DNA of 64,000 nucleotides, taken from assembly GCF_020524765.1 (NCBI RefSeq), contig NZ_JAIVLR010000001.1, forward strand, positions 186,001-250,000, in the 5' to 3' direction. The notes beneath the pieces are model-generated. The model was not told the origin of the DNA and did not search any database. It saw only the letters and a list, made by a program, of their open reading frames with translations. Each line of letters opens with the position of its first letter. Positions within the stretch are counted from its first letter, which is position 1. This DNA is from Qipengyuania gaetbuli. GTDB taxonomy: Bacteria; Pseudomonadota; Alphaproteobacteria; Sphingomonadales; Sphingomonadaceae. Below are positions 23,922-39,049 of this stretch, one piece after another. A program made the translations under genes and the position numbers.

Positions 23922-24644
23922 ATGGGCAAGGAAACTCCTGGCCGCAGATCGAGCGGCTTCTTCGCGACAAGCGCACTTTTGATTGCCGCTCTGGTTCTGC
24001 TGAGTTTTCCGGCCACCTACTTCATTCCCCTGGCAACAGGCAGCAAGCAATTCACGCTTTTGCGCCACCTGCACGGGTTGGCGTTCTTCGCCTGGGTTGG
24101 GCTCTTCGTGGTGCAAACGCAGCTGGTAAGAACAGGCAAGGTGACGCTGCACCGCGAACTCGGCATGGCAGGGGTCGCGCTTGCCGGAGCGATGTTGCCG
24201 CTCGGCATATGGCAGACTGTGCAAGCGGCAGGCGAACGACAGGCCCGCGGCGTTGAACAGCCGTTCGAATATGCGATCTACAACTTGGTCGATATCACGG
24301 TTTTTTGCATCGCGTTTGCCTGGGCCATCTTCGAAGCGACGCGGCGAGTTGAGTGGCATCGCCGGCTCATATTCGTGGCATTCCTGAACCTTTTCGCACC
24401 AGCCTTTTCACGAATTAGCTGGATGACCGTGATCCCGTTTCCATGGTCGGACATGATACCGGCATTGGTAGGCGATGCAGTTCTGATCGCGCTTGCCATC
24501 TACGACAAGCGCAAGCTTGGCCGGATCCACCCCGTAACCCTCGGGGCGATGACGATCCTGATCCCGGTGCATGCAATTTCGCCACTCATCGCCCGCACGG
24601 ACTGGTGGAACTCGATTGCGCCGTTGCTGTTCGGATTTTGGTAG
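23922..24644 (+). CDS. Integral membrane protein of unknown function
   Basis: The 240-residue protein has about seven helices; a histidine-rich second helix (LLRHLHGLAFFAWVGLF) and LHRELGMAGVALAGAMLPLG follow a common bacterial pattern. The ATG at 23922 has a GGGGGAGACGGGG site; an earlier start at 23874 is weaker. The final TGG-TAG lies inside the left 20-bp att repeat. In the empty chromosomal site the gene would end within the tRNA-Met acceptor/CCA region on the other strand. The gene is therefore intact despite the insertion. Function unknown. Confidence 0.8.
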   Translation: MGKETPGRRSSGFFATSALLIAALVLLSFPATYFIPLATGSKQFTLLRHLHGLAFFAWVGLFVVQTQLVRTGKVTLHRELGMAGVALAGAMLPLGIWQTVQAAGERQARGVEQPFEYAIYNLVDITVFCIAFAWAIFEATRRVEWHRRLIFVAFLNLFAPAFSRISWMTVIPFPWSDMIPALVGDAVLIALAIYDKRKLGRIHPVTLGAMTILIPVHAISPLIARTDWWNSIAPLLFGFW

Positions 24645-24657
24645 CGGAGGAGGGACT
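24638..24657 (+). repeat. Left attachment site core (attL)
   Basis: A 20-bp sequence (TTGGTAGCGGAGGAGGGACT) identical to 38972-38991. It is a remnant of the tRNA-Met 3' end carried by the element, and the surrounding bases differ at both ends. The stop codon of the upstream membrane protein lies within it. Confidence 0.93.
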
Positions 24658-24928: not shown

Positions 24929-25462
24929 ATGGCGAAGATCGATAAAGCAGAGGCAGGCAAACGCCTCATTGTCGCGGCTATTAAAATGGTCGAGCGTGGG
25001 GATGAACCATTAGCAAGTCACTTAGTCGCCACCTCAGCTCTGAATGTCCTTCGCGACCTTATCACCCACAGGGGTCAGGAGTATGTCACCGAGATTGTGA
25101 AGCGGGGAATGTTTAGCCTCGCGGAGGCGCAGTCGAAGGGCCTACCACTAGGCTTCGAAGTTCCCGAGGAACTTGCCGGAGTGATTGAAAAATTGTCTGA
25201 GGCAATAAGGGAAGGCAAGGTAACGAAGGCCGAAGAGCTCACCTTCGAACACGAAAAGCCCTGGGAGATGCTGGCGTATCTTCTCCGACCCACAAACTTT
25301 GTGAAGCATGCTGATCGCGACCCAGACGCGACAATCGATGAAGAAGAGGTCGATCCTGAAGATGCCATCGGTCAGGCTCTGGCGGCGTATTCGATGTTGC
25401 GGCCCGATGATCAACTTCCTGAGGAAACCGAGGAATACCTCAAACGCCGAGGCTTTATTTAA
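24929..25462 (+). CDS. HEPN-like candidate RNase of unknown family
   Basis: The 177-residue, largely helical protein starts after an AAAGGAGCG site. It has RDLITH (Arg42, Asp43, His47), matching the R-[N/D/H]-x3-H core of HEPN ribonucleases, inside a predicted long helix. A second cluster, NFVKHADRD (Asn123, Lys126, His127), is also a strongly patterned site. HEPN RNases are common in defence and toxin systems. Here the protein lies at the left end of an integrative element and converges with another unknown gene. No family name is assigned; the HEPN idea rests on motif and helical content only. Confidence 0.6.
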   Translation: MAKIDKAEAGKRLIVAAIKMVERGDEPLASHLVATSALNVLRDLITHRGQEYVTEIVKRGMFSLAEAQSKGLPLGFEVPEELAGVIEKLSEAIREGKVTKAEELTFEHEKPWEMLAYLLRPTNFVKHADRDPDATIDEEEVDPEDAIGQALAAYSMLRPDDQLPEETEEYLKRRGFI

Positions 25463-26262
25463 GGCGTCCGCTTTCTCATATTGATTGCGACGCCTGCCAA
25501 GAAACCACCGATCCCCGGTAGGCCGCAAGCAGTCAGGATCGCCAAAATCGTGGCGGAGACCGTGTAGGGCACCGGGTCGTCTCTTAAGGCACGCGCTGCT
25601 CTCTTGGCGAACCTCGCCGCATCTGTAGCCAAACCATCATTAAAGGCTTCTGTCAGACGTCCCTCATCAGCCGCTTCGATGAGTTCACCGAGCACGCTGT
25701 GCAAGTTTCTGAGCTCCGCGATGGCTTCTTCTATTTCATCGCGTTGAGGCCCCCCATTGTGTCCTGGCTCATCTAGGGTCGCCAACAGATGCGCCACCGC
25801 CTGCTGCGCCACAGGCATGAGGGTCCTAACGGCGGCTACTCTCTCGGTAGGTTTCGTCGCGCCTGTCCATGCGGAACTGCTGTAAGAAGCACGTCCGTCG
25901 CTGATGACATCGGCTGTCTCTTCTGACCCCATTTCCGCGAACAGCCACGTCTTTTCGGCCTCGTAGAGCAGCGGTTCAAATTGTCGGCGGATTTCCTGCC
26001 TTCGCGGCTCCCATTGTGGCGATAAGCTCTTGAGGGAAGGCCACATAACAGCGAGGTCGCGATGTCGACGAACAATTGAGGGGACGTAGCTCGCGTATGA
26101 ACTCTCACTCATCAGGAGCTCGCGCAAGAATTGATACTCGCGCTCAGCTTCAGGGCCACGTTGCCCTTCAGCTGCTTGGAGTACGATATCCTGCAGCCGA
26201 AGTAACGCCTCAAGATCGTCATCAAACGGCCCAAACTCGTTTTCGTCGGTTTGAAATTTCAT
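25459..26262 (-). CDS. Unknown protein with C-terminal hydrophobic segment
   Basis: The 267-residue protein has a charged, helical N-terminal two thirds. A DEPGHNGGPQRDEI segment follows (the HNGGP motif is frequent in alphaproteobacterial island proteins). It ends with a hydrophobic glycine-rich stretch, ATILAILTACGLPGIGGFLAGVAI, near the C-terminus. The stop overlaps the stop of the HEPN-like gene by 4 bp. The ATG at 26262 is preferred to TTG at 26292. A membrane-attached effector or sensor is possible, but the function is not recognised. Confidence 0.65.
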   Translation of the reverse strand: MKFQTDENEFGPFDDDLEALLRLQDIVLQAAEGQRGPEAEREYQFLRELLMSESSYASYVPSIVRRHRDLAVMWPSLKSLSPQWEPRRQEIRRQFEPLLYEAEKTWLFAEMGSEETADVISDGRASYSSSAWTGATKPTERVAAVRTLMPVAQQAVAHLLATLDEPGHNGGPQRDEIEEAIAELRNLHSVLGELIEAADEGRLTEAFNDGLATDAARFAKRAARALRDDPVPYTVSATILAILTACGLPGIGGFLAGVAINMRKRTP

Positions 26263-26437
26263 CAGGATGTTCTTGGCATGAAAAGTCGACAACCACTAGC
26301 CGTCGACGGGGCCCACAACTTGTACCTTTCGGACCTAGTGTCCCAGCCTGGTTCGGGATGGTCGAAAAGATACCATTAGGGGTTGTGGCCCATGGCCATT
26401 TGCGACAGGTACCTTCCCGTCCATCAGCGAGGCCCAA

Positions 26438-27028
26438 ATGACCCACCGTATCGCCTATTATCGCGTTTCAACCCATGACCAGTCGATCGACGCTCAGCGT
26501 GAAGCCTTGGGCGGCAGCTTCCAAGAGGAGTTTATCGACGAAGGGATCAGCGGGGGCACTCTCGCTGCCGACCGGCCCGGCTTCAGCAAACTCCTCGCTC
26601 ATGCCCGAAAGGGTGATGCCGTCCACGTCTACTCCATCGATCGGCTGGGGCGCGATGCGCTCGACGTGCAGGCGACGGTCAAGCACCTCCTCGACAAGGG
26701 CGTGACGGTCGACGTACGGGGCCTCGGCCCCATCTCGGGAGACGCTGGCAAGATCATCGTCGCTGTGCTGGCCCAGATGGCCGAGATAGAGCGCAACCGG
26801 ATCAGAGAGCGCTGCGATGCAGGCCGAGCAGCCGCCAGGGCTTCCTTGGCAGCCACAGGGAAGACCCACAGGGGCAAGGCGAGCTTGGGGAGACCTATGG
26901 CCGCTGACGCTTCCGAGGTTATATCTTGGCGCAAGGAGCGGAAAGCCAGCATCCGGCAGACTGCGGAGCACTTCGGGATCAGCCCCACGAGCGTGAAGCG
27001 GTACTGCGCGGACGCTCTGGCCGCCTAG
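26438..27028 (+). CDS. Serine recombinase (resolvase/invertase family)
   Basis: The 196-residue protein has the catalytic N-terminal domain with YYRVST (Arg9, Ser11), DRPGFSKLL, SIDRLGRDALD and AQMAEIERNRIRER. A C-terminal helix-turn-helix (RQTAEHFGISPTSVKRY) follows. It is full length for small resolvases. The 145-bp upstream gap may hold its recombination site; an imperfect inverted pair (GGGCCCACAAC and GTTGTGGCCC) is visible there. It is the second recombinase of the element, beside the tyrosine integrase, and may resolve or invert internal DNA. Confidence 0.88.
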   Translation: MTHRIAYYRVSTHDQSIDAQREALGGSFQEEFIDEGISGGTLAADRPGFSKLLAHARKGDAVHVYSIDRLGRDALDVQATVKHLLDKGVTVDVRGLGPISGDAGKIIVAVLAQMAEIERNRIRERCDAGRAAARASLAATGKTHRGKASLGRPMAADASEVISWRKERKASIRQTAEHFGISPTSVKRYCADALAA

Positions 27029-27189: not shown

Positions 27190-28587
27190 GTGCCTTCGAC
27201 CAACCTGCCCACCCTCAAGACCGCAAGGGAAAACGCCTGCCTTGTTTCCTTGATGGGGAATGCACGCTCACCAGCAGCCCGAGCCTTCGTTCAGCAGCTC
27301 CTTGATGAGGTGATCCTGCCGCGTCGTGGGCTCTCTGAGCGGAAGAAGCAGGTGGGCGACGCGACCCTGGACAAGCTCAGGACAGCTACCACAACATTGC
27401 TGGCAGACCTGATGAACCTTGCTCGCCCTTCTCGGCGTACGACTGGTCCACTCGCGGCTGCCCATGGGATGTCGCGTAGCCACTTCCCTTCGGCAAAGCT
27501 CGGCTTCGGTTATGACATTTTTACAGAAGTCGTCAGGGCCTTAGAAGCTGAAGGGCTACTGGTGCGGCGGGTCGGCTATCCGCGCTGGGGAGCACCCGAG
27601 GGTGAGAAACACGGCGTGGCAACCTGCTTCCACATGACCGATCAGTTGATTGGGATGACGGCGGCGGCTGGTATGATCGTGGGTGATTGGGAAACGCACT
27701 GGACCCTGAAGCCAAGAGTGGTCGCGGCGGACGGCAAGCGGCTCGAGCTCCGTGCTAAGCGCCAGACCAGGTTCGGCGACAAGTTACCATCAGAGGAACT
27801 CCCCTTCGAACTTAGCGACCCGAGGGTGGCGGAGCTTGATACTCAGATTGAGCGGATAAACCAATTCCTGAACAGTCAGAACGTCGACGGTCTGTCTTTC
27901 CAAGGCCTGCGTCGCATCTTCAACAATGGGGACCAGCCAGACTTCGCTTGGAACAAGGGCGGGCGCTACTACTCGATCCGTGGCGGGGACGCCTACGAGC
28001 GGTGGAGCGCGGATCAGAGGCAGGAGAAGATCAGCATCAATGGAGAGAGGGTGGTGGAGGTAGACCTCAGAGCCTCCCACCTTACGTTGCTTCATGCCCT
28101 CGCTGGTGAGCCATTCGATCCTTGTGATGACCCTTATAACGTAGGAGATCTCCCAAGGGTTGTGGTGAAACTGTGGGTGGCACAGGCTGTCGGAGCATCG
28201 AACCCTGTAGCCCCCAGATGGTCCAAGACTTCGCAAGCCCACTACGAGGCAGAGCGTCGAAACCAGCGGCTGCAGGACGAGTTTCCGATCCGCGAGGTGG
28301 CGGCTGCCGTGAAAGCGAAGCACCCACTCCTCATTGACGTCGGGCACCTCGGGTACTCCACGCTCGACCTCCAGTACCACGAGGCTGAAATCCTGCGGGT
28401 CGCGATGGAAAAGCTCATGTTTGCTCAGGGTATCCCAGTCCTGCCGATCCACGACGCCCTGATCGTTCCTCGGTCGCGGACCGTGGAGGCCGAACAGTCC
28501 CTGAAGGATGCCTTCAGGGAGTACTTGGAGGGGGTGACAGGAAAGACATGCCTTATGGTGCCGAACGTCACCCTCAAGGACAGCTAA
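27190..28587 (+). CDS. Putative polymerase of the superfamily A/T7-RNAP-like class (TV-Pol-like)
   Basis: The 465-residue GTG-started protein follows an AGGAGA site. Its N-terminal half (about 1-230) is a helical, DNA-binding-like region. The C-terminal half shows palm-like motifs. GGRYYSIRGG (258-266) precedes motif A, VVEVDLRASHLTLLHALAG, with Asp292. A motif-B-like helix, LPRVVVKLWVAQAVGAS, carries Arg323, Lys327 and Gly335. Motif C is LPIHDALIVP with His421 and Asp422. This matches the general layout of family A DNA polymerases, T7 RNA polymerase and the transposon/virus TV-Pol group. Replication of the element is a likely role. Catalytic activity is inferred, not shown. Confidence 0.68.
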   Translation: MPSTNLPTLKTARENACLVSLMGNARSPAARAFVQQLLDEVILPRRGLSERKKQVGDATLDKLRTATTTLLADLMNLARPSRRTTGPLAAAHGMSRSHFPSAKLGFGYDIFTEVVRALEAEGLLVRRVGYPRWGAPEGEKHGVATCFHMTDQLIGMTAAAGMIVGDWETHWTLKPRVVAADGKRLELRAKRQTRFGDKLPSEELPFELSDPRVAELDTQIERINQFLNSQNVDGLSFQGLRRIFNNGDQPDFAWNKGGRYYSIRGGDAYERWSADQRQEKISINGERVVEVDLRASHLTLLHALAGEPFDPCDDPYNVGDLPRVVVKLWVAQAVGASNPVAPRWSKTSQAHYEAERRNQRLQDEFPIREVAAAVKAKHPLLIDVGHLGYSTLDLQYHEAEILRVAMEKLMFAQGIPVLPIHDALIVPRSRTVEAEQSLKDAFREYLEGVTGKTCLMVPNVTLKDS

Positions 28588-28604
28588 CGACCCCAGGTCC
28601 CAAG

Positions 28605-28633
28605 GTGGGGAGTGTACAACACCCCCTCCCCAC
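28605..28633. other. Perfect 8-bp inverted repeat after the polymerase-like gene
   Basis: GTGGGGAG (28605-28612) and CTCCCCAC (28626-28633) flank a 13-nt loop, 18 bp after the polymerase-like gene's stop. No T-run follows, so a rho-independent terminator is unlikely. It could be a transcript hairpin, operator or element-specific site. The rest of the 209-bp gap shows nothing else recognisable. Confidence 0.5.
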
Positions 28634-28796
28634 TCTTCAGATGATCATAGGGGACCGAAGGGGAAACGAAGGGGGAAGCATTAGAGTACGAAATCCTCCG
28701 ACCGTCCTGCAATTCTGCGTGGGCCTTAGAAAAGTCGTGATTTGTAAACCACTTACCTCCAAAGATAATACGCCGCACGCAGCACACGAGGAAGCC

Positions 28797-29519
28797 ATGG
28801 ACGCCGATTGGTCATCACGACAGTGCAAGTTGACTGAGCCTGCTGTGCTGGAGACAGCTATCCGTTTCTCCGCGTACCTCCAGTACATGGCTGTCGGGGT
28901 CGACCTATATGACGACGCCTGGACCGAGTTCAGAACCCTCATTGCATCCGAAGTCGAAGAGCGGCTCGAGAACGAAGCTGAGGAGCTAGAGACCTACTCG
29001 GGGCTCAGCGGCTACGGGGACGAGTTCGCCATCGCCGTGATGGGCTGGGGCGGCATCTATTTCGTGGAAGCCTGCGAGTTCGAGCGGCACGGCTACTACC
29101 TCCGACTGGAAGATGCGCGAGCTGACGCAATGCACATTGCCGAGTGCTACTCGGGTATCGATGAGGGCGACACCGTCAGCCCCGTGCCGGGGCAGCGGAT
29201 ACGTGCATGGTACACGGACGACCTTCTCGCCTCGCACGGCCACCTGGATCAACCGACAGGCGAGCTGGAAGTCCACGCGGACACCGAGATCATCGCTCAG
29301 ATAAGCTCCGGCCATCAAGTGAGTTTAGAGCTACCGAGACTGGCCAAAATTGGTGGCGAGTGGGTTCAAGTCGTGTGGCGGTTCAATATGCGGGGCCCTG
29401 GCAGTGCTTCCATCTGGCTCTATTCCCGCGATGGCAGTGAACCAGAGGTGCTTGAGGTCACATCGATGCAGATTGGCGATGAACCGGCTCGCAAAGCTCC
29501 TCCAATCTACGAAGATTGA
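28797..29519 (+). CDS. Unknown protein of the integrative element
   Basis: The 240-residue acidic protein starts MDADWSSRQ after GAGGAAG, with mixed alpha/beta pattern and motifs YGDEFAIAVMGWGGIYFVEACEFERHGYYL and WVQVVWRFNMRGPGSASIWLYSRDG. No cysteine cluster, catalytic motif or membrane segment stands out, and no family is recognised. A longer frame from 28548 overlaps the polymerase-like gene and has no support. Its last 13 bp overlap the 3' end of hsdR on the other strand. Its position suggests co-transcription with the polymerase-like gene. Confidence 0.65.
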   Translation: MDADWSSRQCKLTEPAVLETAIRFSAYLQYMAVGVDLYDDAWTEFRTLIASEVEERLENEAEELETYSGLSGYGDEFAIAVMGWGGIYFVEACEFERHGYYLRLEDARADAMHIAECYSGIDEGDTVSPVPGQRIRAWYTDDLLASHGHLDQPTGELEVHADTEIIAQISSGHQVSLELPRLAKIGGEWVQVVWRFNMRGPGSASIWLYSRDGSEPEVLEVTSMQIGDEPARKAPPIYED

Positions 29520-32500
29520 AGCCGGGCATCTCGTGCATACCGCGTCAGCACAAAGTCCCACACCTGATCGACCTTCGCGTCCCAAAGGTCCTTCGGGTAA
29601 GGGTCTTCCGGTAGCTCGTTCAGGCCAACCTTGATTGCCCACTGTACAGCCCCACGGGTCTCCTGACCCCGCATCCAGTCGACCGCGTCTACAAGGCCCT
29701 GAAGCTTCTCCAAGAGCCCTCGGGCCACCTTCTTGACCTCCTGCTCCTGGGCCTTGGTGAGCTTTGGCTCCGGTGTGGTAAGCAAATCAAAGATCGCCAG
29801 CTCTTCCTCGGTCAGCTCCTCACGTGCCGCCCGCTGCTCTTCCTCGTCCAGACTGTCTATGAACGCCTTCAGGCCCTCGAAGAACTTCTCGGCGTCGATG
29901 GAGCCCGCATTGTACTCGGCGACCAGTTTCTCCAGCCGCTCGACAAGGTTGACCCTTGTGGGGTTGGCCTCAGCCATCTTCTTGACCTTGTCTTCGGCAG
30001 CCTCACGCATCTTCTCTGCCGCCACCTTGGGGCTGGTGTCGAACAGGCTCGCGAGCTTCTCGAAGTCTATGCCTGACAGGTCCACACGCCCCTCGGCGCT
30101 GTCGCCTCCGACGATAGGGGTGACAATTGCGACCCCCTCGAGTTTCTCGTCGAGGAGTTGCGCGATCCTGTCTGAGATGGCCGAGATGTCGACCGGGCCC
30201 AGCTTGGCTCTCACGGCATCGGACAGCATGTGAAAGACCGCCACGGGCCTCAGGAACGGTGCGGCTCGCTCATCCGGCAGCAGAGCCTTGTAGGCCCTTG
30301 TAACTGCCCCTGCGAGCCTGAGGAACTCGCGCCGCCGCTCGTCGGGGGCCACCAGGGCCTCTACGGCGCTGTTGATGAGCTTCAGGCGCTCAAAGTCCTT
30401 GGCGGCCATGATCGCCTCAGGATCGACCCCTAGCGGCGCTGAGAAGGCTCTGGCAGCCTCCAGGGACTTCTCCAGCTCCCTGACAAGCTCTTCCTTGTCC
30501 TTGATCGGCGTCTGGCCGTCGCCTCGACCAGCCGCATAGACCGCAAGCGCCTTCTGGAGGTTCTGAAAGACACCCACGTAGTCGACGATCACGCCGGAGG
30601 TCTTGCCCTCCGCCTTCCGGTTCGCCCTGGCGATGGTCTGCATCAGCGTGTGCGACTTCATCGGCTTGTCGAGATAGACCGTGCCAATGCTGGGCACGTC
30701 AAAGCCTGTGATCCACATGGCGCACACGAACACTAGGCGCAGCGGATCATCCTTGTTCTTGAACTTGGCCTCGAGGTCCTCCTTCTGCATCCGCTCGCGG
30801 TGCGGCAGGATGTCGAGCCCCTTCTGGCGCAGGTCGTCGACCTCGTTCTGGCCCTGGCTGACCACCACTGCCATGTCGAGCTCTCGCAGCCACATCAGCC
30901 GCTCGGCGATGGCCGCTCCTTCGGCCTCGTGGGCCGTCTTTAGGCGTCGCTCGTCCTCTGCGATCAGACGTGCCACCGCCGTCTTGACCCTGTCGTGCAT
31001 TGATACTGCCGTGGCCTTGTCGATGGCCACGAACATCGCCTTCCCACGGTAGCCGCGCTGGGCGAAGTGAAGCGCCACGTCCTCAGCCACTTTGTCGAGC
31101 CGGTCGGGGTTGGTGATCAGGGTGTACTGCCGGGCAAATTGCTTGCTGAGCTTCTTCTCCTGCTCCTCGTCCAGCGCCGCCTCATCCAGTAGCGCGTCGA
31201 GCTCCTCCTGCAGCTCGTCGGTGTTGAGCTGGAGCTCCGGCTTGCGGCCCTCGTAGAACAGCGGCACCGTCGCGCCGTCCTTTACCGACTGGGCGAAGTC
31301 GTAGACCGAAACGTAGTCCCCGAAGACTTCCTTGGTTCGGCTCTCGTCGCCCTTGATCAGGGGGGTCCCGGTGAAGCCAATGAAGGCCGCGTTCGGGAGC
31401 GCTTTGCGCATATTGGCCGCGAGCTGAGCGTATTGGCTCCGATGGGCCTCGTCAGTCATCACGATGATGTCCGAACGCTCAGAGAGCACCGGCATGGGCT
31501 CCTGGTCGTCGGTCGAGAACTTCTGGATCAGCGTGAAGACATAGCGCTCATTGCCCGCAAGGAGGTCCCTTAGGTGCGCCCTGCTTCCCGCCTGGGCCTG
31601 CTGGGTGTCTTTTGTCAGTGCGCCAGCTGTGGCGAACTGCCCCGCGATCTGATCGTCGAGTTCGGTTCGGTCGGTCACCACCACAAAGGTGTAGTTGCCG
31701 CCCATGCGCCGCAATGCCTTCTCGGCGAACATCACCATCGAAAGGCTCTTGCCGGAGCCCTGGGTGTGCCAGAAGACCCCAAGGCGACCCTGGTTCTCCT
31801 CGATGTGCCGCAAGGCCTCGATGGCCCGGTTGACCCCCAGGACCTGGTGGTAGCGCCCAATGATCTTGATGAGACCGCCCTTGGCCTCGTCGAACAGCAC
31901 GAAGTTCTCGATCAAGTCGAGGAAGCGGGCAGGCTCGCAGGTAGCCCGCAGCATGGTCTCTAAGCTAGGGTCTTCGGGGCCGCCTTCCTCCAGCCGCTTC
32001 CAGGGCGAGAAGAATTGGAAGGGCGCGTGGCTTGCCCCGACGACGCTCTCGAGGCCGTTGGATAGGATTACCAGACCGTTGGCATGGAAGAGCTGCGGGA
32101 TAGCGTCCTTGTAGTCTCTGAGGTTCTTCTCGTAAGCGTCGGCCAGCGGCGCGGTCGGGGCCTTCCATTCTGCCAACAGCAGCGGCAGGCCATTGACGTA
32201 GCCGATGGTGTCGGGTCGCCGCTTGTGGAGCACCCCCTCGATCCACACCTGGTTGGCGACCAGGAAGTCGTTGTTGGTAGGGTTCTTCCAGTCGATCACG
32301 CGAACCAGCACGTCCTCGAACTTGCCCTGCTCGTTTTTCACCTCGACCCTGACGCCGTCCGTCACGAGCTCCAGGACCTCGCGGTTGGCCGCCACGGGCA
32401 ACAGGGCCGTGCGATCCCGTGTGAGCTCTTCCTCGGCCAGGGTGAGGGCGTCCTCCGGCAAGTCGGGGTTGAGCTTGGCCAGCGCCGCTCGCAGCCTTGC

Positions 32501-32668
32501 AAGGAGGTAGGGCTCCTTGAGGCTGGCCCGCCCGTAGACATTCTCCGGCCCCGGCTGGTCATGGTAGAGGTTGACACACTCCCAGCCGAGCTCCTGCAGC
32601 AGCGCCAGCGCGGGCTTCTCGATGATGCCGTCTTCCGAGGCGACCAGGCCAGAGAGCGAAGGAGGCAT
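29507..32668 (-). CDS. hsdR: Type I restriction endonuclease, R subunit (HsdR)
   Basis: The 1053-residue motor subunit has an N-terminal PD-(D/E)xK nuclease (RPDTIGYVNGLPLLLAEWKAP, with Asp153, Glu167, Lys169). The SF2 helicase core follows: HTQGSGKS (Walker A, about 301-308), DEAH at 406-409, TGTP near 433 and a late QTIARANRKAEGK motif. It cuts DNA lacking the methylation placed by HsdMS and needs ATP-driven translocation. It is the last gene of the hsdM-hsdS-DUF4268-hsdR run, starting at the last base of the preceding gene. Length is normal and all core motifs are present. Confidence 0.95.
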   Translation of the reverse strand: MPPSLSGLVASEDGIIEKPALALLQELGWECVNLYHDQPGPENVYGRASLKEPYLLARLRAALAKLNPDLPEDALTLAEEELTRDRTALLPVAANREVLELVTDGVRVEVKNEQGKFEDVLVRVIDWKNPTNNDFLVANQVWIEGVLHKRRPDTIGYVNGLPLLLAEWKAPTAPLADAYEKNLRDYKDAIPQLFHANGLVILSNGLESVVGASHAPFQFFSPWKRLEEGGPEDPSLETMLRATCEPARFLDLIENFVLFDEAKGGLIKIIGRYHQVLGVNRAIEALRHIEENQGRLGVFWHTQGSGKSLSMVMFAEKALRRMGGNYTFVVVTDRTELDDQIAGQFATAGALTKDTQQAQAGSRAHLRDLLAGNERYVFTLIQKFSTDDQEPMPVLSERSDIIVMTDEAHRSQYAQLAANMRKALPNAAFIGFTGTPLIKGDESRTKEVFGDYVSVYDFAQSVKDGATVPLFYEGRKPELQLNTDELQEELDALLDEAALDEEQEKKLSKQFARQYTLITNPDRLDKVAEDVALHFAQRGYRGKAMFVAIDKATAVSMHDRVKTAVARLIAEDERRLKTAHEAEGAAIAERLMWLRELDMAVVVSQGQNEVDDLRQKGLDILPHRERMQKEDLEAKFKNKDDPLRLVFVCAMWITGFDVPSIGTVYLDKPMKSHTLMQTIARANRKAEGKTSGVIVDYVGVFQNLQKALAVYAAGRGDGQTPIKDKEELVRELEKSLEAARAFSAPLGVDPEAIMAAKDFERLKLINSAVEALVAPDERRREFLRLAGAVTRAYKALLPDERAAPFLRPVAVFHMLSDAVRAKLGPVDISAISDRIAQLLDEKLEGVAIVTPIVGGDSAEGRVDLSGIDFEKLASLFDTSPKVAAEKMREAAEDKVKKMAEANPTRVNLVERLEKLVAEYNAGSIDAEKFFEGLKAFIDSLDEEEQRAAREELTEEELAIFDLLTTPEPKLTKAQEQEVKKVARGLLEKLQGLVDAVDWMRGQETRGAVQWAIKVGLNELPEDPYPKDLWDAKVDQVWDFVLTRYARDARLQSS

Positions 32669-33666
32669 CAGTCAGTCTCGTTGCCGTCCTGCGACTGGTC
32701 TAGGCCTTCACCGCTCTCAGGCAATTCGAGCACAAGGGGACGAAACACATCGTAGAACCGCTCGAGTTTTTCGATCAGCCAGGTGTGCTGGCGACCCCAG
32801 TCGCTCTCGTTTGTCGGATCGGCATTTTCAAGGTAGAGGGCCACGCGGCTCTGCTTCTTGCCGTCTAGTCGCTGCCACGACAGGGGATGGCCTATCTTGG
32901 CTTCGATCTCGTCCCGGTGGGCGACAATCGCATCGTACCAAACCTTGCCAGGCGGGCCGTTGCAGCAAAACTCAGCCCAGACGTTGTTCTTCTGGGTATT
33001 CATGCACGCGCCAAGCCAAGCTCCAGAGCGACCCAACGCGTATGTGGTCCAAGACTGCGGCTGCGCTTTCTGCGGACGCACCTTGCTACCCCGTTCGATC
33101 AATGCAGATCGCAGCGCGCTCCAGTAGTGTCGTTGGGTTTCCTTGAGGTCACTGACCCGCCCGCCTGCCCCCTGCTTCACTTCTCGCTGCCAATCGTTCG
33201 GCTCAGCGATGATGTTGAACATGGGTGCGGGGGGCGATCCCGCGATCTGCCACAGCTCAATCTCCAGCCCGAAGAATTCGAGCTGATCGCTGGTGACATC
33301 GTTGAGCCAGTCGAGCGCGGCGCGGTGCTCTTCGGCGAAGCTCTCCGCGATCCAGACAACAGTCACCGCATCTAGGCCAGCGGCGTAGGTCAATAGCTGC
33401 CCGAGGTGCCGGTGATCCGTGCGCTCGAGCTGGTTCTCGATCAGCACCCAGTGGTCATCGGTTGTGTCAGTGCGCTTGGCCAGAATGTCAGCCTTGAAGG
33501 GCCCTACGAATTTTTCAGTCGCCTCGACCTCCAACTCCATTCCTAGCGCTTCCTGGAGGAGTTCCATGCCTTCGTCAGAGGCTAACCAAGGGGTGAAGTG
33601 GCTAGCCTCGTTGGGCCAAGCGCTTCTGACGTCGACCCGGTGCACCTTTCCGAGCTTCGGGATCAT
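32668..33666 (-). CDS. DUF4268 protein with PD-(D/E)xK-like N-terminus
   Basis: The 332-residue protein has KFVGPFKADILAKRTDTTDDHWVLIENQLERTDHRHLGQLLTYAAGLDA in its N-terminal third. The Asp60/Glu77-x-Gln79 order resembles a PD-(D/E)xK nuclease variant. The C-terminal DUF4268 region includes WAEFCCNGP and the SWQRLDGKKQSRVALYLENAD segment. It overlaps hsdS (ATGA) and abuts hsdR, so it is a built-in member of this restriction operon. Function is unknown; an extra nuclease or modulator of HsdR is plausible. Confidence 0.75.
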   Translation of the reverse strand: MIPKLGKVHRVDVRSAWPNEASHFTPWLASDEGMELLQEALGMELEVEATEKFVGPFKADILAKRTDTTDDHWVLIENQLERTDHRHLGQLLTYAAGLDAVTVVWIAESFAEEHRAALDWLNDVTSDQLEFFGLEIELWQIAGSPPAPMFNIIAEPNDWQREVKQGAGGRVSDLKETQRHYWSALRSALIERGSKVRPQKAQPQSWTTYALGRSGAWLGACMNTQKNNVWAEFCCNGPPGKVWYDAIVAHRDEIEAKIGHPLSWQRLDGKKQSRVALYLENADPTNESDWGRQHTWLIEKLERFYDVFRPLVLELPESGEGLDQSQDGNETD

Positions 33667-34946
33667 GCGGCGTCCTCCAATTGGCGTTCGGCAGCCTCGA
33701 CGGAAAGCTGGCCGGAGATAAGACGAGGAAGTAGGAGGTCGCGGGACGCGGCGAGTGACCGGTTCGAGCGCTCGAGGGAGAGCACCATGTCATGCATGGG
33801 GCGAGCAATATCTTCGAACTGAGCGGTCACTCGGTTATCGGGTACGCAAACCTTGAGTTTCTTAAAGACGCCCTTGGTTATCTCTTTGAAGGTCGCGCCC
33901 GTAGCGTGAGCAATGAAGATCGGTACATTCTGAGCAAGCAAATGGTAGAGGTAAGTCCTCGGCAGGCGCTCATTTGGCAGGCATGTAATGAAGCCTTGGT
34001 TAGTGCTCGCTGGACCTGTGCAGATCGAGATGACACCCAACGTCGCTCGGCTAGTCATCATAATGCTATCTGCGGGAAAGAGCTTGGCGGAACTTTTGGC
34101 CAAACCTGCTTCGGTGATACGAAGGCTGGATCGGTCCATAAACAACGATCCTGACCCCGTCAGATCAGTGGGAGTGTACCAGTCGACAGTCCCACCGGTC
34201 CAATATTCCTCAATTTTCTTGCTTGGAGTGCCACCACCAAGGAAGTCGAAAGCGTCCTCGATGTGCTGGAACTCCCACCCATCAGGCAGAGGACCATCGG
34301 GAGTGTTGAGGATGGACACGTTTTCGTGGCCGGGGAATTGGAAGCGGACGAACCACTCCTGGAAAAGGCCCCGCGCCATCTCCTCCAGCACCGACACTCG
34401 CCGCCGGTTCACTTCGATTAGGTCGTCATAGGCCCCGAGGATCGACGCGATGCGCTGTTGGGTTTTGACGGGTGGGAACGGGAACTCAATCCTCTCGATG
34501 ATCGCTTGGTTGAGCGTGGCCATCGTCGACCCATGTGAAGACTGGTTGAGTATCCAATCCCTATGCTGCTTGGTTCTGAGGCAGAAGGAAGCGAACCTGT
34601 CGTCAAGATCGTCGCTGACCAGTCTCAGCCTGAGGCAGTCAGAGCCTTGCATCCAGCCCTCTTGTTCGGTGACCCAAAGATGACGATCTACGGCAGCTTT
34701 TCGTCCAAAGACAATGTCGCCTCGCTTCAGCAGATGCGATCGCAGTCTCTCAACCGTATCGTCTGCAACGTGCTCCAGTTTCGCATTCGTCAGCCCTCCC
34801 AGTCCTACATTTCGAACGTTGATTACAGGGCAGCCTTCTTCAACGTAGTGCGCCGCCTTTAGCTGTGTTCCGAAGGGTCCTGTCTTGATTTCGGCGCTGC
34901 CTTTGGCGACAAGATCGCCAACACGAACGGTTGTCCAGGAAGTCAT
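33663..34946 (-). CDS. hsdS: Type I restriction-modification specificity subunit (HsdS)
   Basis: The 427-residue HsdS has the usual two target-recognition domains. Each is followed by conserved helices: QRIASILGAYDDLIEVNRRRVSVLEEMARGLFQEWF in the middle and AQFEDIARPMHDMVLSLERSNRSLAASRDLLLPRLISGQLS near the end. It decides the bipartite DNA site for methylation and cutting. It overlaps hsdM and the DUF4268 gene by 4 bp each. No inverted repeats for phase-variable switching were noticed. Confidence 0.93.
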   Translation of the reverse strand: MTSWTTVRVGDLVAKGSAEIKTGPFGTQLKAAHYVEEGCPVINVRNVGLGGLTNAKLEHVADDTVERLRSHLLKRGDIVFGRKAAVDRHLWVTEQEGWMQGSDCLRLRLVSDDLDDRFASFCLRTKQHRDWILNQSSHGSTMATLNQAIIERIEFPFPPVKTQQRIASILGAYDDLIEVNRRRVSVLEEMARGLFQEWFVRFQFPGHENVSILNTPDGPLPDGWEFQHIEDAFDFLGGGTPSKKIEEYWTGGTVDWYTPTDLTGSGSLFMDRSSLRITEAGLAKSSAKLFPADSIMMTSRATLGVISICTGPASTNQGFITCLPNERLPRTYLYHLLAQNVPIFIAHATGATFKEITKGVFKKLKVCVPDNRVTAQFEDIARPMHDMVLSLERSNRSLAASRDLLLPRLISGQLSVEAAERQLEDAA

Positions 34947-36502
34947 CCTTCGAGGACCTCGGCCACGTTATGCGCGATGGTCTCCTGCAGCCTTGCCGCC
35001 TCAGCGTTCAGTACCTCCAGTTCCTCTTGCAGGCCCTCCAGCCGCTCCTTGAAGTCAACATCGTCCATGTGCTCGCCAGGTGCGACACCGACATACCGCC
35101 CAGGGTTGAGGCTCCAGTCTTGCGCCTCGATGTCGGCTCGGCTGGCGACCTTGCAGAGCCCAGGAGTTTCCTTGAAGCCTTCCTCGCCGAAGGTCTCGGC
35201 CATGAGGTATGCGCTGCCCTGCTCTGTCTCCACCTCCTCGCCGCGCCACAGCCGCACGATGTTGCCGATGAACTCGATGTGCGCTGGCGTGTATTCGCGG
35301 TGCGCCCTGGTCACTTGGCGAAAGATGTGGCGAGCGTCGATGAAGAGCACCTCGTCCACGCGCTCACTCTTCGCCTTGCCCTTGTCGAGGAACCACAAGG
35401 TCACTGGCAGGGTCACCGTGAAGAACATGTTGGGCGAAGTAGAGATGATCACATCGACCATCCCCGACTGGACCAGCTTCTTCCTGAGCTCCCGTTCTGA
35501 ACCGCCAGCGTCAGAAGCCGAGTTGGCCATCACGAAACCTGCCCTGCCTTTCTCGTTCAATGCAGCGGCGAATAGGCCGACCCACAGGTAGTTCGCATTG
35601 TTGACTGTTGGGATGCCGAGCGAGAACCGGGCGTCCACTGTGCCCGCCTCATTGGTCAGCCGCTCCCGGTCGACCTCCGACTGGTTGAACGGCGGGTTGG
35701 CCATCACGAAGTCGAACTTACCGACCATCTGGTGCGGGTCTTCGTAGTAGCTGTTGGCCACCACGATGTCCCCCGAAAGCCCATGGACCGCGAGGTTGAG
35801 GCGGCACAGCTTCTGCGTGTCCTCCATTTTCTCGATCCCGTAGACGCTCAGCTCGCGACTGGGGGTCTTGTGGTGGCGGCGCACGAAGTCGGCAGAGTGA
35901 ACGAACATGCCGCCCGATCCGCAGGCCGGGTCGAGTATTTTGCCGTGGTAGGGCTCGATGACCTCCACGATTAGCTTCACGATAGATGAGGGGGTGAAGT
36001 ACTCGCCGCCCTTCTGCATATACGCCGAGGCGAACTCGCCCATGAAAAACTCGAAGATGGCACCGTAAGCATCCCCGCTTACATCCAGTGGCTGGAGGAT
36101 ACGCAGGAGCTCCCTGAGGACCTTGTCAGGCAGCGATCCGTAACCCTGGGGCATCACACCTGCCAGATCAGGGTTGTGTTCTGTGATGGCCTTCATGGCC
36201 TCGTTGAGGGCCTCGGCGACACTCTCGTTCTCCGGCAGGCCGAGTAGGTAGGAGAAACGGGCGTTGTCGGGCAGGAACACCGCCCCGTGCCCGTGGTAGG
36301 CCTCTGCGGTTGGCGTCAGGCGGCCCGTGAACGTCTTGGACAGCTCAGCGTGGACCTGGTCGAACTTGGCCTCCATCTGCCGCAGGGCGATCAGAGCAAG
36401 CACCGGCTGGGCATATTGGTCGGGCCTCAGTGCCGTATTGGTCCAGAGCTGGTTCGCAGCCTGGAAGAGCCTCCGCGAGAGGTCCTGAAGATCAACGGCC
36501 AA
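34943..36502 (-). CDS. hsdM: Type I restriction-modification DNA methyltransferase (HsdM)
   Basis: The 519-residue adenine methyltransferase has the SAM-binding motif DPACGSGGMF (191-200), the catalytic NPPF (269-272) and the target region GEYFTPSSIVKLIVEVIEP. HsdM with HsdS marks host DNA. A TTG start at 36502, with AGGGGA upstream, keeps the usual N-terminus MAVDLQDLSRRLF. It is the first gene of the operon, read toward the left of the window. Confidence 0.95.
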   Translation of the reverse strand: MAVDLQDLSRRLFQAANQLWTNTALRPDQYAQPVLALIALRQMEAKFDQVHAELSKTFTGRLTPTAEAYHGHGAVFLPDNARFSYLLGLPENESVAEALNEAMKAITEHNPDLAGVMPQGYGSLPDKVLRELLRILQPLDVSGDAYGAIFEFFMGEFASAYMQKGGEYFTPSSIVKLIVEVIEPYHGKILDPACGSGGMFVHSADFVRRHHKTPSRELSVYGIEKMEDTQKLCRLNLAVHGLSGDIVVANSYYEDPHQMVGKFDFVMANPPFNQSEVDRERLTNEAGTVDARFSLGIPTVNNANYLWVGLFAAALNEKGRAGFVMANSASDAGGSERELRKKLVQSGMVDVIISTSPNMFFTVTLPVTLWFLDKGKAKSERVDEVLFIDARHIFRQVTRAHREYTPAHIEFIGNIVRLWRGEEVETEQGSAYLMAETFGEEGFKETPGLCKVASRADIEAQDWSLNPGRYVGVAPGEHMDDVDFKERLEGLQEELEVLNAEAARLQETIAHNVAEVLEG

Positions 36503-36586: not shown

Positions 36587-37003
36587 CTATTCTGAGGATG
36601 TACCCCGACAATTGTACGCGAGCGCTTCCTCGACCGCCGCAATGAACTTTGCCCTCGTTCGATCGAGGTGGCCGTAAGCGTGACCATGGGACGACAACAT
36701 CTGAAGGTAGTACTGGGCCCCGGCAGCCGCCGCCCTGCCCCACACGTCGTTCTCGTGCAGCTCGGGCGAGAGCTGATCGGAAGCCTCATCGAAGCAATAT
36801 CGTACCTCTCGGTCTTCGATTTCTTCAGCGATCGTCTTGGCAGCCTTGTGAAACCGATAGGCGGCTTCCTGGCTGTGCTTCCATGCCTGTTGTTTTGCGA
36901 ACGACCCTTTGAGAACTTGGAGGACCATTTCGGCGACATCAGCTCCAACCATGTGTTCGTGGATGCGCTTTGCGGTTTTCACCTGTCCGTTATCTTTTTG
37001 CAT
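36587..37003 (-). CDS. Small helical protein of unknown function
   Basis: The 138-residue protein has an AGGAG site before its ATG and lies between the integrase and hsdM on the same strand. It is mostly helical and histidine-rich (KHSQEAAYRFHKAAK, SSHGHAYGHLDRTRAKFIAAVEEAL) with only two cysteines. No DNA-binding motif or family is recognised. It may be an antirepressor, toxin/antitoxin partner or restriction regulator; the sequence does not choose between them. Confidence 0.6.
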   Translation of the reverse strand: MQKDNGQVKTAKRIHEHMVGADVAEMVLQVLKGSFAKQQAWKHSQEAAYRFHKAAKTIAEEIEDREVRYCFDEASDQLSPELHENDVWGRAAAAGAQYYLQMLSSHGHAYGHLDRTRAKFIAAVEEALAYNCRGTSSE

Positions 37004-37064: not shown

Positions 37065-38873
37065 TTAGCCATCAGCGGGAGCCGCCCAGCGAGGTACCAG
37101 AGAGACTATGTCGACTTCCTCGCCAGCCATATCGACTATCCTCAACTTGTCGATTTGCGATCCGAGGACCTCGGTCGATCCATAGTCCGAATTCGAGCTA
37201 CCCCCTCTTGGTGCCTTGTGACCCTGGATGTACTCCTGGGCTTCGCGGTAGATGCCCGAGGAGCGGGCAGCAGTTGTCCACGTATCGCGAAATTCTCGCA
37301 CCGGCTTGCGACCAGTATCGCGTTCGAGAACTCCGTGGCCGTAGACGTAATCTGCGAACCAGCCGCCGAAGCTGTCGTAGATGCCTGGCCGCCTGTTCTT
37401 CCGGGTCAACAGCGGGAAGAGGGCAAGCTGCTCCCGACTACGCAACCACGAAGCATAGTCGAGCAAGCCAAGTTCCAGCAGCGGCTGGGGCACCGGGATA
37501 GTCCTGCGGCCACTTTCGGTCCGCTCGGTCTTCAAGCTCTGGTGGCCTTTGACCGGATGTAGCCCCTCGTCGGTAAAGCGGATCAGCCACCGCCCGTCTT
37601 GCTGCCGCTGGTAAATGTCATCCACGAGGAGCTGCGCGACTTCCTCAGGACGCGCCCCAGTGTACAAGGCGATGAGCGGCAACCAAAAGGGCGTCTCTCC
37701 CCTTCCCCTTTTCGGGCGCTCACCGGACTGGAACACGGGCATGGAGAAGTAGCTCGTCAGCTCGGAAGCGGAGAAGCCAACACCACGCTTTCTGCTCTTG
37801 GGGGTCGCTTCAAATCGTCTGCCTAGGAAGGGGTTCTCGAGGTCGCCTTTGATGTCGCCTCTACTCACACCTTCCTTCCAGATGCGCGAAAGAGCGCTCA
37901 TGCGCACGTCCTGCGTTCTGCCCGACATCCGCAGCACGTCTTCTCTGCCTTCGTACAGCACCGCGAGTTCTGGGAGAGTGAGATTACGCTCCTCCGTGGG
38001 CAACTTAACGGGGCGCTGGGCCATCAGGTCGAGAAGCGTCGTCACGGACAAACGAGTGAGCTCCGAGGGCTTAGGGTCACCCAGCACCTCTTCAATGAAC
38101 CGGAGGCTCGTACGAACGTGCTCTCTGACGCCTTCCTTGATTGTCTTGACGGTGGGGCTGTCAACTATTCCACGAGCGATCGACCGAAAAGTTTCCTCGT
38201 TCGAGCTCGCAGACTTCACAAGGCATCCTATGCCTATTTCGGGTCCATCATCTGCGACGGGCCTGGTGGGAGGCTCTGGGGTGGCTGCGCCCTTCCCATC
38301 GTCCCGCCGGTCAATTGCCAACCACAACTTGCAGGAAGCCTCCCCAATTGCGCGACACAGAGCTGGGAACTGGGGATCACTGCGGCTGAACGTGTACCCC
38401 ATCGCTTGCGAATAGGAGCTCACCCAATCGCCCCAGTAATCCACCAGGCCGGTTAGGTCATAGTCTTCGAGCAGCTCCCGACTGCTTTCGTAGTCCTGCT
38501 CACGATCTCTGCGCGTGTCGAATTGGTAGTGTGGGAGTGACTGCTGCCACCTGGAGGCCTCGTCCAGCTCAAGCTGATGGTGGATGTAGTTGTCGGCGAG
38601 GTACCGAATGAGAGGCGGGTCCAGCCGGTCATATGCTCCCGCTGCCAATTTCCGCGCCCTGCTCACCAAGCGCTCGTACTTGGCTGCAGCATCGTCATGA
38701 CGGGCTTTGGCACCCGGCTCATCCAAAGAACGAGCGCCGAGAGAGACTTTGAGCTCCGTGAGCGCCCGACCTCCCTCCGTCACGAAAGGGCGCAGGGCGA
38801 CTGGAAACGCCCTTCGATACCGGAGCACCTTGGTCTTGGGATCAGCCTGAAGATAACGCACATTGATTTCCAC
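37065..38873 (-). CDS. Tyrosine integrase of the element
   Basis: The C-terminal catalytic domain has PLIALYTGARPEEVAQLL (first Arg), TESGRRTIPVP, VREFRDTWTTAARSSG (the usual HxxR is RxxR), IQGHKAPRG (His) and SDYGS with the nucleophilic Tyr. The N-terminal part (YRRAFPVALRPF...) is typical of alphaproteobacterial island integrases. A GTG start at 38873 (602 residues, AAAGGTGG site) is preferred: the open frame to 39005 would run through att and tRNA DNA, giving a suspicious N-terminus (MSGVRVPPPLP). The right-end repeats would then be upstream of the gene. Confidence 0.88.
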   Translation of the reverse strand: MEINVRYLQADPKTKVLRYRRAFPVALRPFVTEGGRALTELKVSLGARSLDEPGAKARHDDAAAKYERLVSRARKLAAGAYDRLDPPLIRYLADNYIHHQLELDEASRWQQSLPHYQFDTRRDREQDYESSRELLEDYDLTGLVDYWGDWVSSYSQAMGYTFSRSDPQFPALCRAIGEASCKLWLAIDRRDDGKGAATPEPPTRPVADDGPEIGIGCLVKSASSNEETFRSIARGIVDSPTVKTIKEGVREHVRTSLRFIEEVLGDPKPSELTRLSVTTLLDLMAQRPVKLPTEERNLTLPELAVLYEGREDVLRMSGRTQDVRMSALSRIWKEGVSRGDIKGDLENPFLGRRFEATPKSRKRGVGFSASELTSYFSMPVFQSGERPKRGRGETPFWLPLIALYTGARPEEVAQLLVDDIYQRQQDGRWLIRFTDEGLHPVKGHQSLKTERTESGRRTIPVPQPLLELGLLDYASWLRSREQLALFPLLTRKNRRPGIYDSFGGWFADYVYGHGVLERDTGRKPVREFRDTWTTAARSSGIYREAQEYIQGHKAPRGGSSNSDYGSTEVLGSQIDKLRIVDMAGEEVDIVSLVPRWAAPADG

Positions 38874-38889
38874 GTGTTGGCCACCTTTC

Positions 38890-38961
38890 TGTACCACCGG
38901 ACGTACTACCGAGGTCTTAAAAAGGACGTGTTTCCAACGATTTCCTGGAAATCTGCCACTT
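38890..38961 (+). repeat. Right imperfect direct repeats of the element ends
   Basis: The blocks at 38890-38916 (TGTACCACCG..CGAGGTC) and 38948-38961 (GAAATCTGCCACTT) match the left-end blocks at 24733-24760 and 24683-24696. They fall between the integrase start and the att core. Spacing to the core differs on the two sides, as expected for arm sites. Confidence 0.5.
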
Positions 38962-38971
38962 GGCAATGCCA

Positions 38972-38991
38972 TTGGTAGCGGAGGAGGGACT
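38972..38991 (+). repeat. Right attachment site core (attR) inside tRNA-Met 3' end
   Basis: A 20-bp block identical to 24638-24657. It covers the CCA end, acceptor 3' strand and part of the T arm of the tRNA gene, so integration restored a full tRNA. Bases on either side differ from the left copy. Confidence 0.93.
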
Positions 38992-39049
38992 CGAACCCCC
39001 GACACGCGGATTATGATTCCGCTGCTCTAACCACCTGAGCTACTCCGCC
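38973..39049 (-). tRNA. tRNA-Met (CAU), elongator type
   Basis: Reading the reverse strand from 39049, a 77-nt cloverleaf is found. The acceptor strand GGCGGAG pairs with CTCCGCT (G-U at the end). The D arm is GCTCAGGTGGTTAGAGC. The anticodon stem GCGGA/TCCGC encloses loop ATCATAA with anticodon CAT. The T arm contains GGTTCGAGTCC, and CCA is encoded. A CAU tRNA can read Met or, if modified, Ile; the body fits elongator Met. Its 3' 19 bases form the integration site of the element. Confidence 0.93.

Follow-up and report, generated by a model that had tools for sequence, protein, structure and literature searches.

A TV-Pol-type palm polymerase as the probable replication protein of a tRNA-Met-bounded island with restriction cargo in Qipengyuania gaetbuli

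A 64,000-nucleotide stretch of Qipengyuania gaetbuli DNA (contig NZ_JAIVLR010000001.1, positions 186,001 to 250,000; the window) contains an open reading frame (ORF) for a polymerase-like protein of 465 residues at 27190..28587 on the forward strand. The ORF begins with GTG at 27190, its stop codon ends at 28587, and the sequence AGGAG, which resembles a ribosome-binding site, lies immediately 5' of the start. The gene is part of an integrative island of 14.35 kb, delimited by two perfect 20-nt repeats (24638..24657 and 38972..38991, forward strand) that match the 3' end of a tRNA-Met gene (CAT; 38973..39049, reverse strand), the integration target. The left attachment repeat is 100% identical to this end and the right one overlaps it. 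At the right border, a large tyrosine integrase (37065..39005, reverse strand; PHROG 1 integrase, E 2.8e-14) is encoded by an ORF that enters the tRNA gene, its true start probably lying further in. The island also carries a small serine recombinase, or resolvase, of 196 residues (26438..27028, forward strand; PF00239 at E 1.2e-31, with HTH_7), a candidate res site (26310..26422, forward strand) and, on the reverse strand, the genes of a type I restriction system: the restriction subunit HsdR (29507..32668), the specificity subunit HsdS (33663..34946) and the N6-adenine methyltransferase HsdM (34943..36502). A preliminary description of this DNA had placed the restriction operon beside a small element; it sits instead inside the polymerase's own tRNA-bounded island.

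Comparison with relatives bears on the limits of the island. In one genome (G403), homology extends through the left flank up to 24656 and through the right flank from 38973, and the same tRNA-Met site is filled by about 55 kb of different DNA (G403:C4 737905-792795); the island boundary therefore holds, and the tRNA-Met site is an integration hot spot. In another (G404), the tRNA flank is present and about 0.85 kb of the left flank is absent. A clean empty site with joined flanks was not seen in any of the 29 loci compared in relatives. A separate transposon nested in the island was considered and rejected, the direct-repeat search having found no repeats that bracket it.

All the sequence motifs from which a polymerase had been proposed are present at the positions claimed: VEVDLRASH with Asp292 (motif A), R323-x3-K327-x7-G335 (motif B-like) and IHDAL with His421-Asp422 (motif C). 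A protein search retrieved 61 proteins at E<=0.001 among 7,999 candidates scored, and a first alignment comprised 60 sequences including the query, with the hits P0047 and P0055 omitted. D292, K327, E290, R242, R259, R277, Y316 and a few more residues are invariant in it. A wider alignment of 57 sequences, also including the query, combined a subset of the first-search proteins with distant loci; here D292, K327 and R259, the template-hairpin arginine, are found in 57 of 57 sequences, R323 in 55 of 57 and D314 in 54 of 57, and, where one row has a gap, H421 in 52 of 56 and D422 in 56 of 56. Such conservation is far above chance. Pfam, NCBIfam and PADLOC give no family for the protein, whose single family match is PHROG 4756, a PHROG without an assigned function.

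The palm fold and the kinship to PolA and T7 RNA polymerase (RNAP) are supported by structure comparison of the predicted model and by profile alignment. In one hhalign comparison with 25 PolA proteins from genomes of the same class (E 2e-4, probability 47, residues 238-444), VEVDLRASH is placed on PolA motif A and PIHDALI on QVHDELI. This profile check upheld the correspondence of motifs A and C, which are superposed; motif B is not, and its putative equivalence to that of PolA is suggested by its pattern and its order along the chain. In four control comparisons, which used profiles of resolvases and of integrases, the E-values were 0.065, 0.067, 0.2 and 0.6. Against the single sequence of T7 RNAP, the hhalign alignment covers just 13 hairpin residues. 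No polymerase was retrieved when the profile was compared with PDB sequences, the best hit (E 1.1) being a chance match to a phosphatase, and Pfam yielded no match to DNA_pol_A (PF00476) up to E 1, in a search whose filters remove most matches above about 0.1.

The family to which the protein had been assigned, the transposon/virus polymerases (TV-Pol), was described by Iyer, Abhiman and Aravind in 2008 (PMC2579912) as polymerases with a thumb, two aspartates in the palm, an arginine in a hairpin, and an Asp and RxxxK in the fingers. Its members, many of them alphaproteobacterial, were proposed as minimal primase-polymerases near the ancestor of PolA and T7 RNA polymerase and were predicted to act as primases and polymerases; in a subset, which has an extra N-terminal domain, the genes lie beside those of gamma-delta resolvases and integrases where restriction operons also occur. 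The window protein shows most of these features, its setting fits that description, and the assignment is supported. In the model, two putative catalytic aspartates lie in a predicted RRM-like palm, preceded by a β-hairpin (strands 240-244 and 257-262) that carries the conserved R259, which hhalign aligns with the PolA GRL motif. The fingers contain D314, R323 and K327, and the gene is linked to a resolvase and an integrase in the window and to a PF00239 hit within 3 kb in 17 of 27 loci. As to the thumb, which in TV-Pols consists of two antiparallel helices, the model has one long helix (211-228) directly before the hairpin. The N-terminal domain (residues ~1-210, ahead of the palm and fingers at ~210-465) is modelled with strands and helices; that it might be winged-helix-like is a weak suggestion. 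As a named member of the family for comparison, MAP_030 of phage Ma-LMM01, which adjoins transposases, is presumably the one meant by Iyer and colleagues, although this is our guess. Among the ORFs in the first 50 kb of that phage, hmmsearch with the wider hidden Markov model (HMM) matched MAP_030 weakly (E 0.013), and the narrower HMM did not match it. With hhalign, the single MAP_030 sequence gave a weak E of 0.0071, and a family of seven gave E 0.001 with the three motifs colinear (E 0.12 for the narrower profile); this family showed no direct match to the PolA profile (E 0.26). The direct sequence link of the window polymerase to this probable named TV-Pol is therefore weak, and it is by its features and predicted fold that the ORF appears to be a real palm polymerase, best filed with the TV-Pols.

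The resolvase has the Ser/Arg/Asp set of the Tn3 type, R9, S11, D68, R69, R72 and R125, which we take to be catalytic and which are conserved in 19 of 19 sequences. Upstream of seven resolvases, that of the window and six that are 65-84% identical to it, there are three imperfect dyads in colinear arrangement. Those of the window, candidate subsites I (26310-26335), II (26360-26391) and III (26394-26422), measure 26, 32 and 29 bp, with a gap of 24 bp between I and II; the linker between these subsites in Tn3 is given as 22 bp in PMC9943657. The block was searched for only upstream of resolvases with at least 55% identity and enough flank, which excluded L041 (70%) and five resolvases of 35-41% identity. 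The subsites were delimited by eye and each locus was left out in turn; in five of the seven loci the best place then overlaps the block or lies no more than about 80 bp from where it starts, namely in the window (39.1 versus 25.9 for the next), L004, L128, L129 and, by a hair, L011 (27.4 versus 27.0). An earlier scan around the resolvase, limited to perfect dyads of 8 nt or longer, had found them in only one of the seven stretches.

The same layout recurs elsewhere. Attachment (att) repeats, defined as a tRNA end repeated exactly over 15 nt or more, were sought in 12 loci and in 23 more, which make 34 distinct TV-Pol loci since L003 is G323; many of them end at contig ends, and a tRNA lies within the DNA covered in 21. 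A repeat of 17-104 nt was found in 15 loci (window, G363, G127, G340, G333, G221, G126, L014, L015, L019, L020, L023, L024, L026 and L027), and it brackets the polymerase in 15 of 15. The islands so defined span 4.9 to 19.3 kb and use tRNAs for Met, Thr, Cys, Pro, Leu, Ser, Glu, His and Asn; within the same loci, 12 tRNAs have no repeat. A tRNA without an att repeat is present in G323, G171, G000b, L006, L013 and L017, and the DNA covered includes no tRNA in G194, G253 and twelve loci of the 23-locus set. A resolvase lies inside 14 of the 15 islands. An integrase is detected by HMM in 14, weakly in L024 (E 1.3e-6) and in G340 (E 9e-8), where its ORF also crosses the left repeat; the integrase-like ORF of L027 was judged by eye alone. 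Restriction or modification genes occur in 8 of the 15, the small islands having been partly scanned for defence: type I in the window, G363, G127, G126, L023 and L026, type IIG with Snf2 in G221, and an N6-methyltransferase-like protein of 1271 residues in G333. The 4.9-kb att-bounded element at L014:6475-11404 contains little beyond an integrase, two smaller ORFs and TV-Pol, and is perhaps a minimal form.

A second TV-Pol, 34% identical, adjoins a resolvase in G000 (L029:15739-16374, L030:1191-14045; G000:C1 ~955,700-971,000). This pair is followed by BrxA, BrxB, BrxC, PglX, PglZ and BrxL, a complete-looking BREX system according to PADLOC, and by an integrase at tRNA-Leu. PglZ, the BREX marker, is present in 3 of 26 genomes and shares a contig with the polymerase in G000 only.

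Within the family, 26 of 397 genomes have a TV-Pol match (at most four candidates scored per genome). Integrases of the window type occupy 27 places in the 397 genomes (E<=1e-20, at most three candidates scored per genome), nine of them near TV-Pol, and 24 places in the 26 genomes at E<=1e-6, of which 15 are with the polymerase. The linkage sample consisted of these 26 genomes (95.8 Mb), with 27 polymerase loci, 128 PF00239 hits, some of which are longer recombinases (e.g., G246), and 47 PF02384 hits. Under random placement over whole genomes, not over islands only, 0.27 loci would be expected with PF00239 within 3 kb of the polymerase, compared with the 17 observed, and 0.28 with PF02384 (N6-methyltransferase genes) within 10 kb, compared with 9 of 27. 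The components have also been exchanged. HsdR is 79-89% identical in L003-L006, where the polymerase is 43-58% identical, so the two have been inherited apart; in L009 the resolvase is 84% and the polymerase 33% identical, and in L003 the values are 34% and 58%. Because the parts are swapped yet the set persists, a functional set is favoured over a frozen hitchhiking block.

We consider that the TV-Pol-kind palm polymerase is probably the replication protein of the 14.35-kb tRNA-Met island, with the restriction genes as cargo. Among the island ORFs scanned, it is the only recognised replication protein. In the cycle that we infer, the tyrosine integrase would excise the island from the tRNA-Met gene and the N-terminal domain may bind an origin within the excised circle. 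The palm and fingers would make a primer and probably extend it too, assisted by the host helicase and replisome, and dimers or concatemers would be reduced to monomers by the serine resolvase, at the three-part res-like site that accompanies it, before re-integration. The type I restriction system would travel as cargo.

Several observations weigh against this account. No replicative helicase or SSB was recognised among the island ORFs scanned. His297 aligns with the motif-A glutamate of PolA, which is the steric gate; because a histidine stands there (38 of 57 sequences), the choice between deoxyribonucleotides and ribonucleotides (dNTP versus rNTP) cannot be read from this position. In the leave-one-out scan for the res block, L125 ranks third and L009 is not found, and by a strict count (start within 25 bp) the higher-scoring stretches elsewhere number 9 for the window, 0 for L004, 56 for L009, 0 for L128, 0 for L129, 13 for L125 and 3 for L011, the block being unbeaten in three of seven. 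The short att-bounded island of L014 is without a resolvase, and an att repeat was sought and not found for the BREX-linked second copy in G000. The expected values given above overstate a specific link to the polymerase, because islands cluster mobile genes; moreover, PF00239 hits lie within about 10 kb of five of the nine integrase places that lack TV-Pol, so the association of resolvase and polymerase may partly reflect a shared island type. Finally, CcPol, an A-family polymerase of SCC elements, requires its partner MP for priming, according to PMC10061031.

Iyer and colleagues proposed a replicative transposon driven by the resolvase, in which resolvase and TV-Pol would form the mobile unit and the island would be its landing place. 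They describe a nearly identical pair of ~4-kb elements in Brucella, with ~200-nt direct repeats (PMC2579912), and a recombinase domain lies within 600 bp of the polymerase in 8 of 27 loci. However, no direct repeat found in the window encloses the resolvase and polymerase alone, the two genes are several kb apart inside one att-bounded island in G126, G333 and L023, they have been swapped independently (L009, L003), and mobility is already explained by the tyrosine integrase and the tRNA repeats. We regard such a transposon as unlikely. It is quite improbable, in our view, that the polymerase belongs to or works with the restriction or BREX cargo in defence, for instance by filling in damaged DNA or synthesising DNA during infection. 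The enrichment of N6-methyltransferase genes near the polymerase and the second copy adjoining BREX would agree with this, but the cargo varies (type I, IIG plus Snf2, BREX) while the polymerase is constant, HsdR and polymerase have separate histories, and PADLOC has no match for the polymerase. Seven att-bounded islands of 4.9-11.5 kb also have the polymerase without a blastp relative of reference restriction proteins, in a partial comparison (G340 against the window set only, six against a larger set, with seven of their proteins scanned with Pfam). The role in defence that the preliminary description had raised is thus not supported over replication of the element.

The island might also be a helper-dependent phage satellite, whose TV-Pol-made concatemers would be packaged by a helper phage and reduced to monomers by the resolvase in the recipient. 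Its size, its tRNA insertion and its replication protein with a resolvase are compatible with this, and PICMIs, as described in PMC10803314, combine integrase, primase and concatemer packaging without capsid-remodelling genes. We nevertheless hold a satellite to be very improbable: no packaging, AlpA-like or capsid family was found among the window-island ORFs scanned, no helper phage is known, and of 50,697 phage records just 2 contain a relative at E<=1e-5, one 25.5% and the other 26.8% identical.

Tycheposons resemble the window island in being small islands that encode an integrase and a replication protein and carry additional genes. PICMI satellites are alike in these respects; as described in PMC10803314, they differ in integrating next to fis and in being modelled with a DUF3987/DUF5906 primase and AlpA, and neither a helper nor a packaging function was recognised for the window island among its scanned ORFs. 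SGI1, according to PMC12217951, is a genomic island that encodes a Tn3-like resolvase and has a res site for it, a system that removes SGI1 multimers; unlike what is proposed here, SGI1 is mobilised by IncA/IncC plasmids. The CcPol-MP and PolA-SSB primases of SCC elements resemble our case as A-family palm polymerases on a recombinase-bearing island, and primase activity has been demonstrated for the CcPol-MP complex. In the same source (PMC10061031), those members whose polymerase domain is full retain a 3'-5' exonuclease in part or in whole and have an OB-fold partner and a helicase alongside, whereas no such exonuclease was recognised in the window polymerase and neither companion in its island. 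Pfam found no SSB family among the neighbours, though CcPol-MP-type OB-fold partners were found by structure, and no helicase other than HsdR among the nine window-island proteins scanned. With the TV-Pols of PMC2579912, the window protein shares the palm aspartates, the hairpin arginine, the fingers Asp and RxxxK, the lack of a nuclease domain, an extra N-terminal domain, a length in the 400-600-residue range, and a setting of gamma-delta resolvase, lambda-type integrase and restriction operons, with alphaproteobacterial members. Differences are the lack of a D5 helicase in the window island, an N-terminal domain modelled with strands and helices (the TV-PolN domain was predicted to be all-helical) and the assignment of mobility to integrase/tRNA recombination, not to the resolvase.

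We tentatively raise the possibility, short of regarding it as probable, that small tRNA-integrated islands of Alpha- and Betaproteobacteria include a distinct family built around an integrase, TV-Pol and a serine resolvase with its own res site. Such islands would specialise in carrying modification-based defence (type I and IIG restriction, BREX), and TV-Pol would by itself bind the origin, prime and polymerise, with no helicase dedicated to it. As an enzyme the polymerase belongs to an established kind; novelty for a specialist may lie in the island family, with its res-like site and the defence genes that it carries. A literature search returned no paper describing TV-Pol islands with defence cargo, most subscription journals being outside its reach, and no TV-Pol biochemistry came up besides that of the SCC relative CcPol, no search having been aimed at it. 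The 15 delimited islands, down to 4.9 kb, are compact testable elements in which no replication gene other than that of the polymerase was recognised among the scanned proteins. They further suggest a simple account of why polymerase and resolvase travel with restriction or BREX genes, in which the pair would sustain the vehicle and defence would be the freight.

The remaining genes of the window island include a DUF4268 protein (32668..33666, reverse strand), a PADLOC candidate (PDC-S11) encoded between HsdR and HsdS, a position it likewise holds in L003 and L004. A 177-residue ORF (24929..25462, forward strand) has no family found, and a 277-residue ORF (25459..26292, reverse strand) of unassigned function has a partial match to PHROG 23253 (E 1.2e-7). 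A 323-residue ORF (28548..29519, forward strand) has a 33% identical relative in the same place in L004, and a 138-residue ORF (36587..37003, reverse strand) is likewise of unassigned function. In other loci, a Bro-N protein accompanies TV-Pol (L020:10783-11295), as reported for a Brucella TV-Pol element (PMC2579912), and an uncharacterised protein of ~230 residues is encoded downstream of the polymerase in three (L024:11395-12108, L027:10794-11495 and L028:1887-2573).
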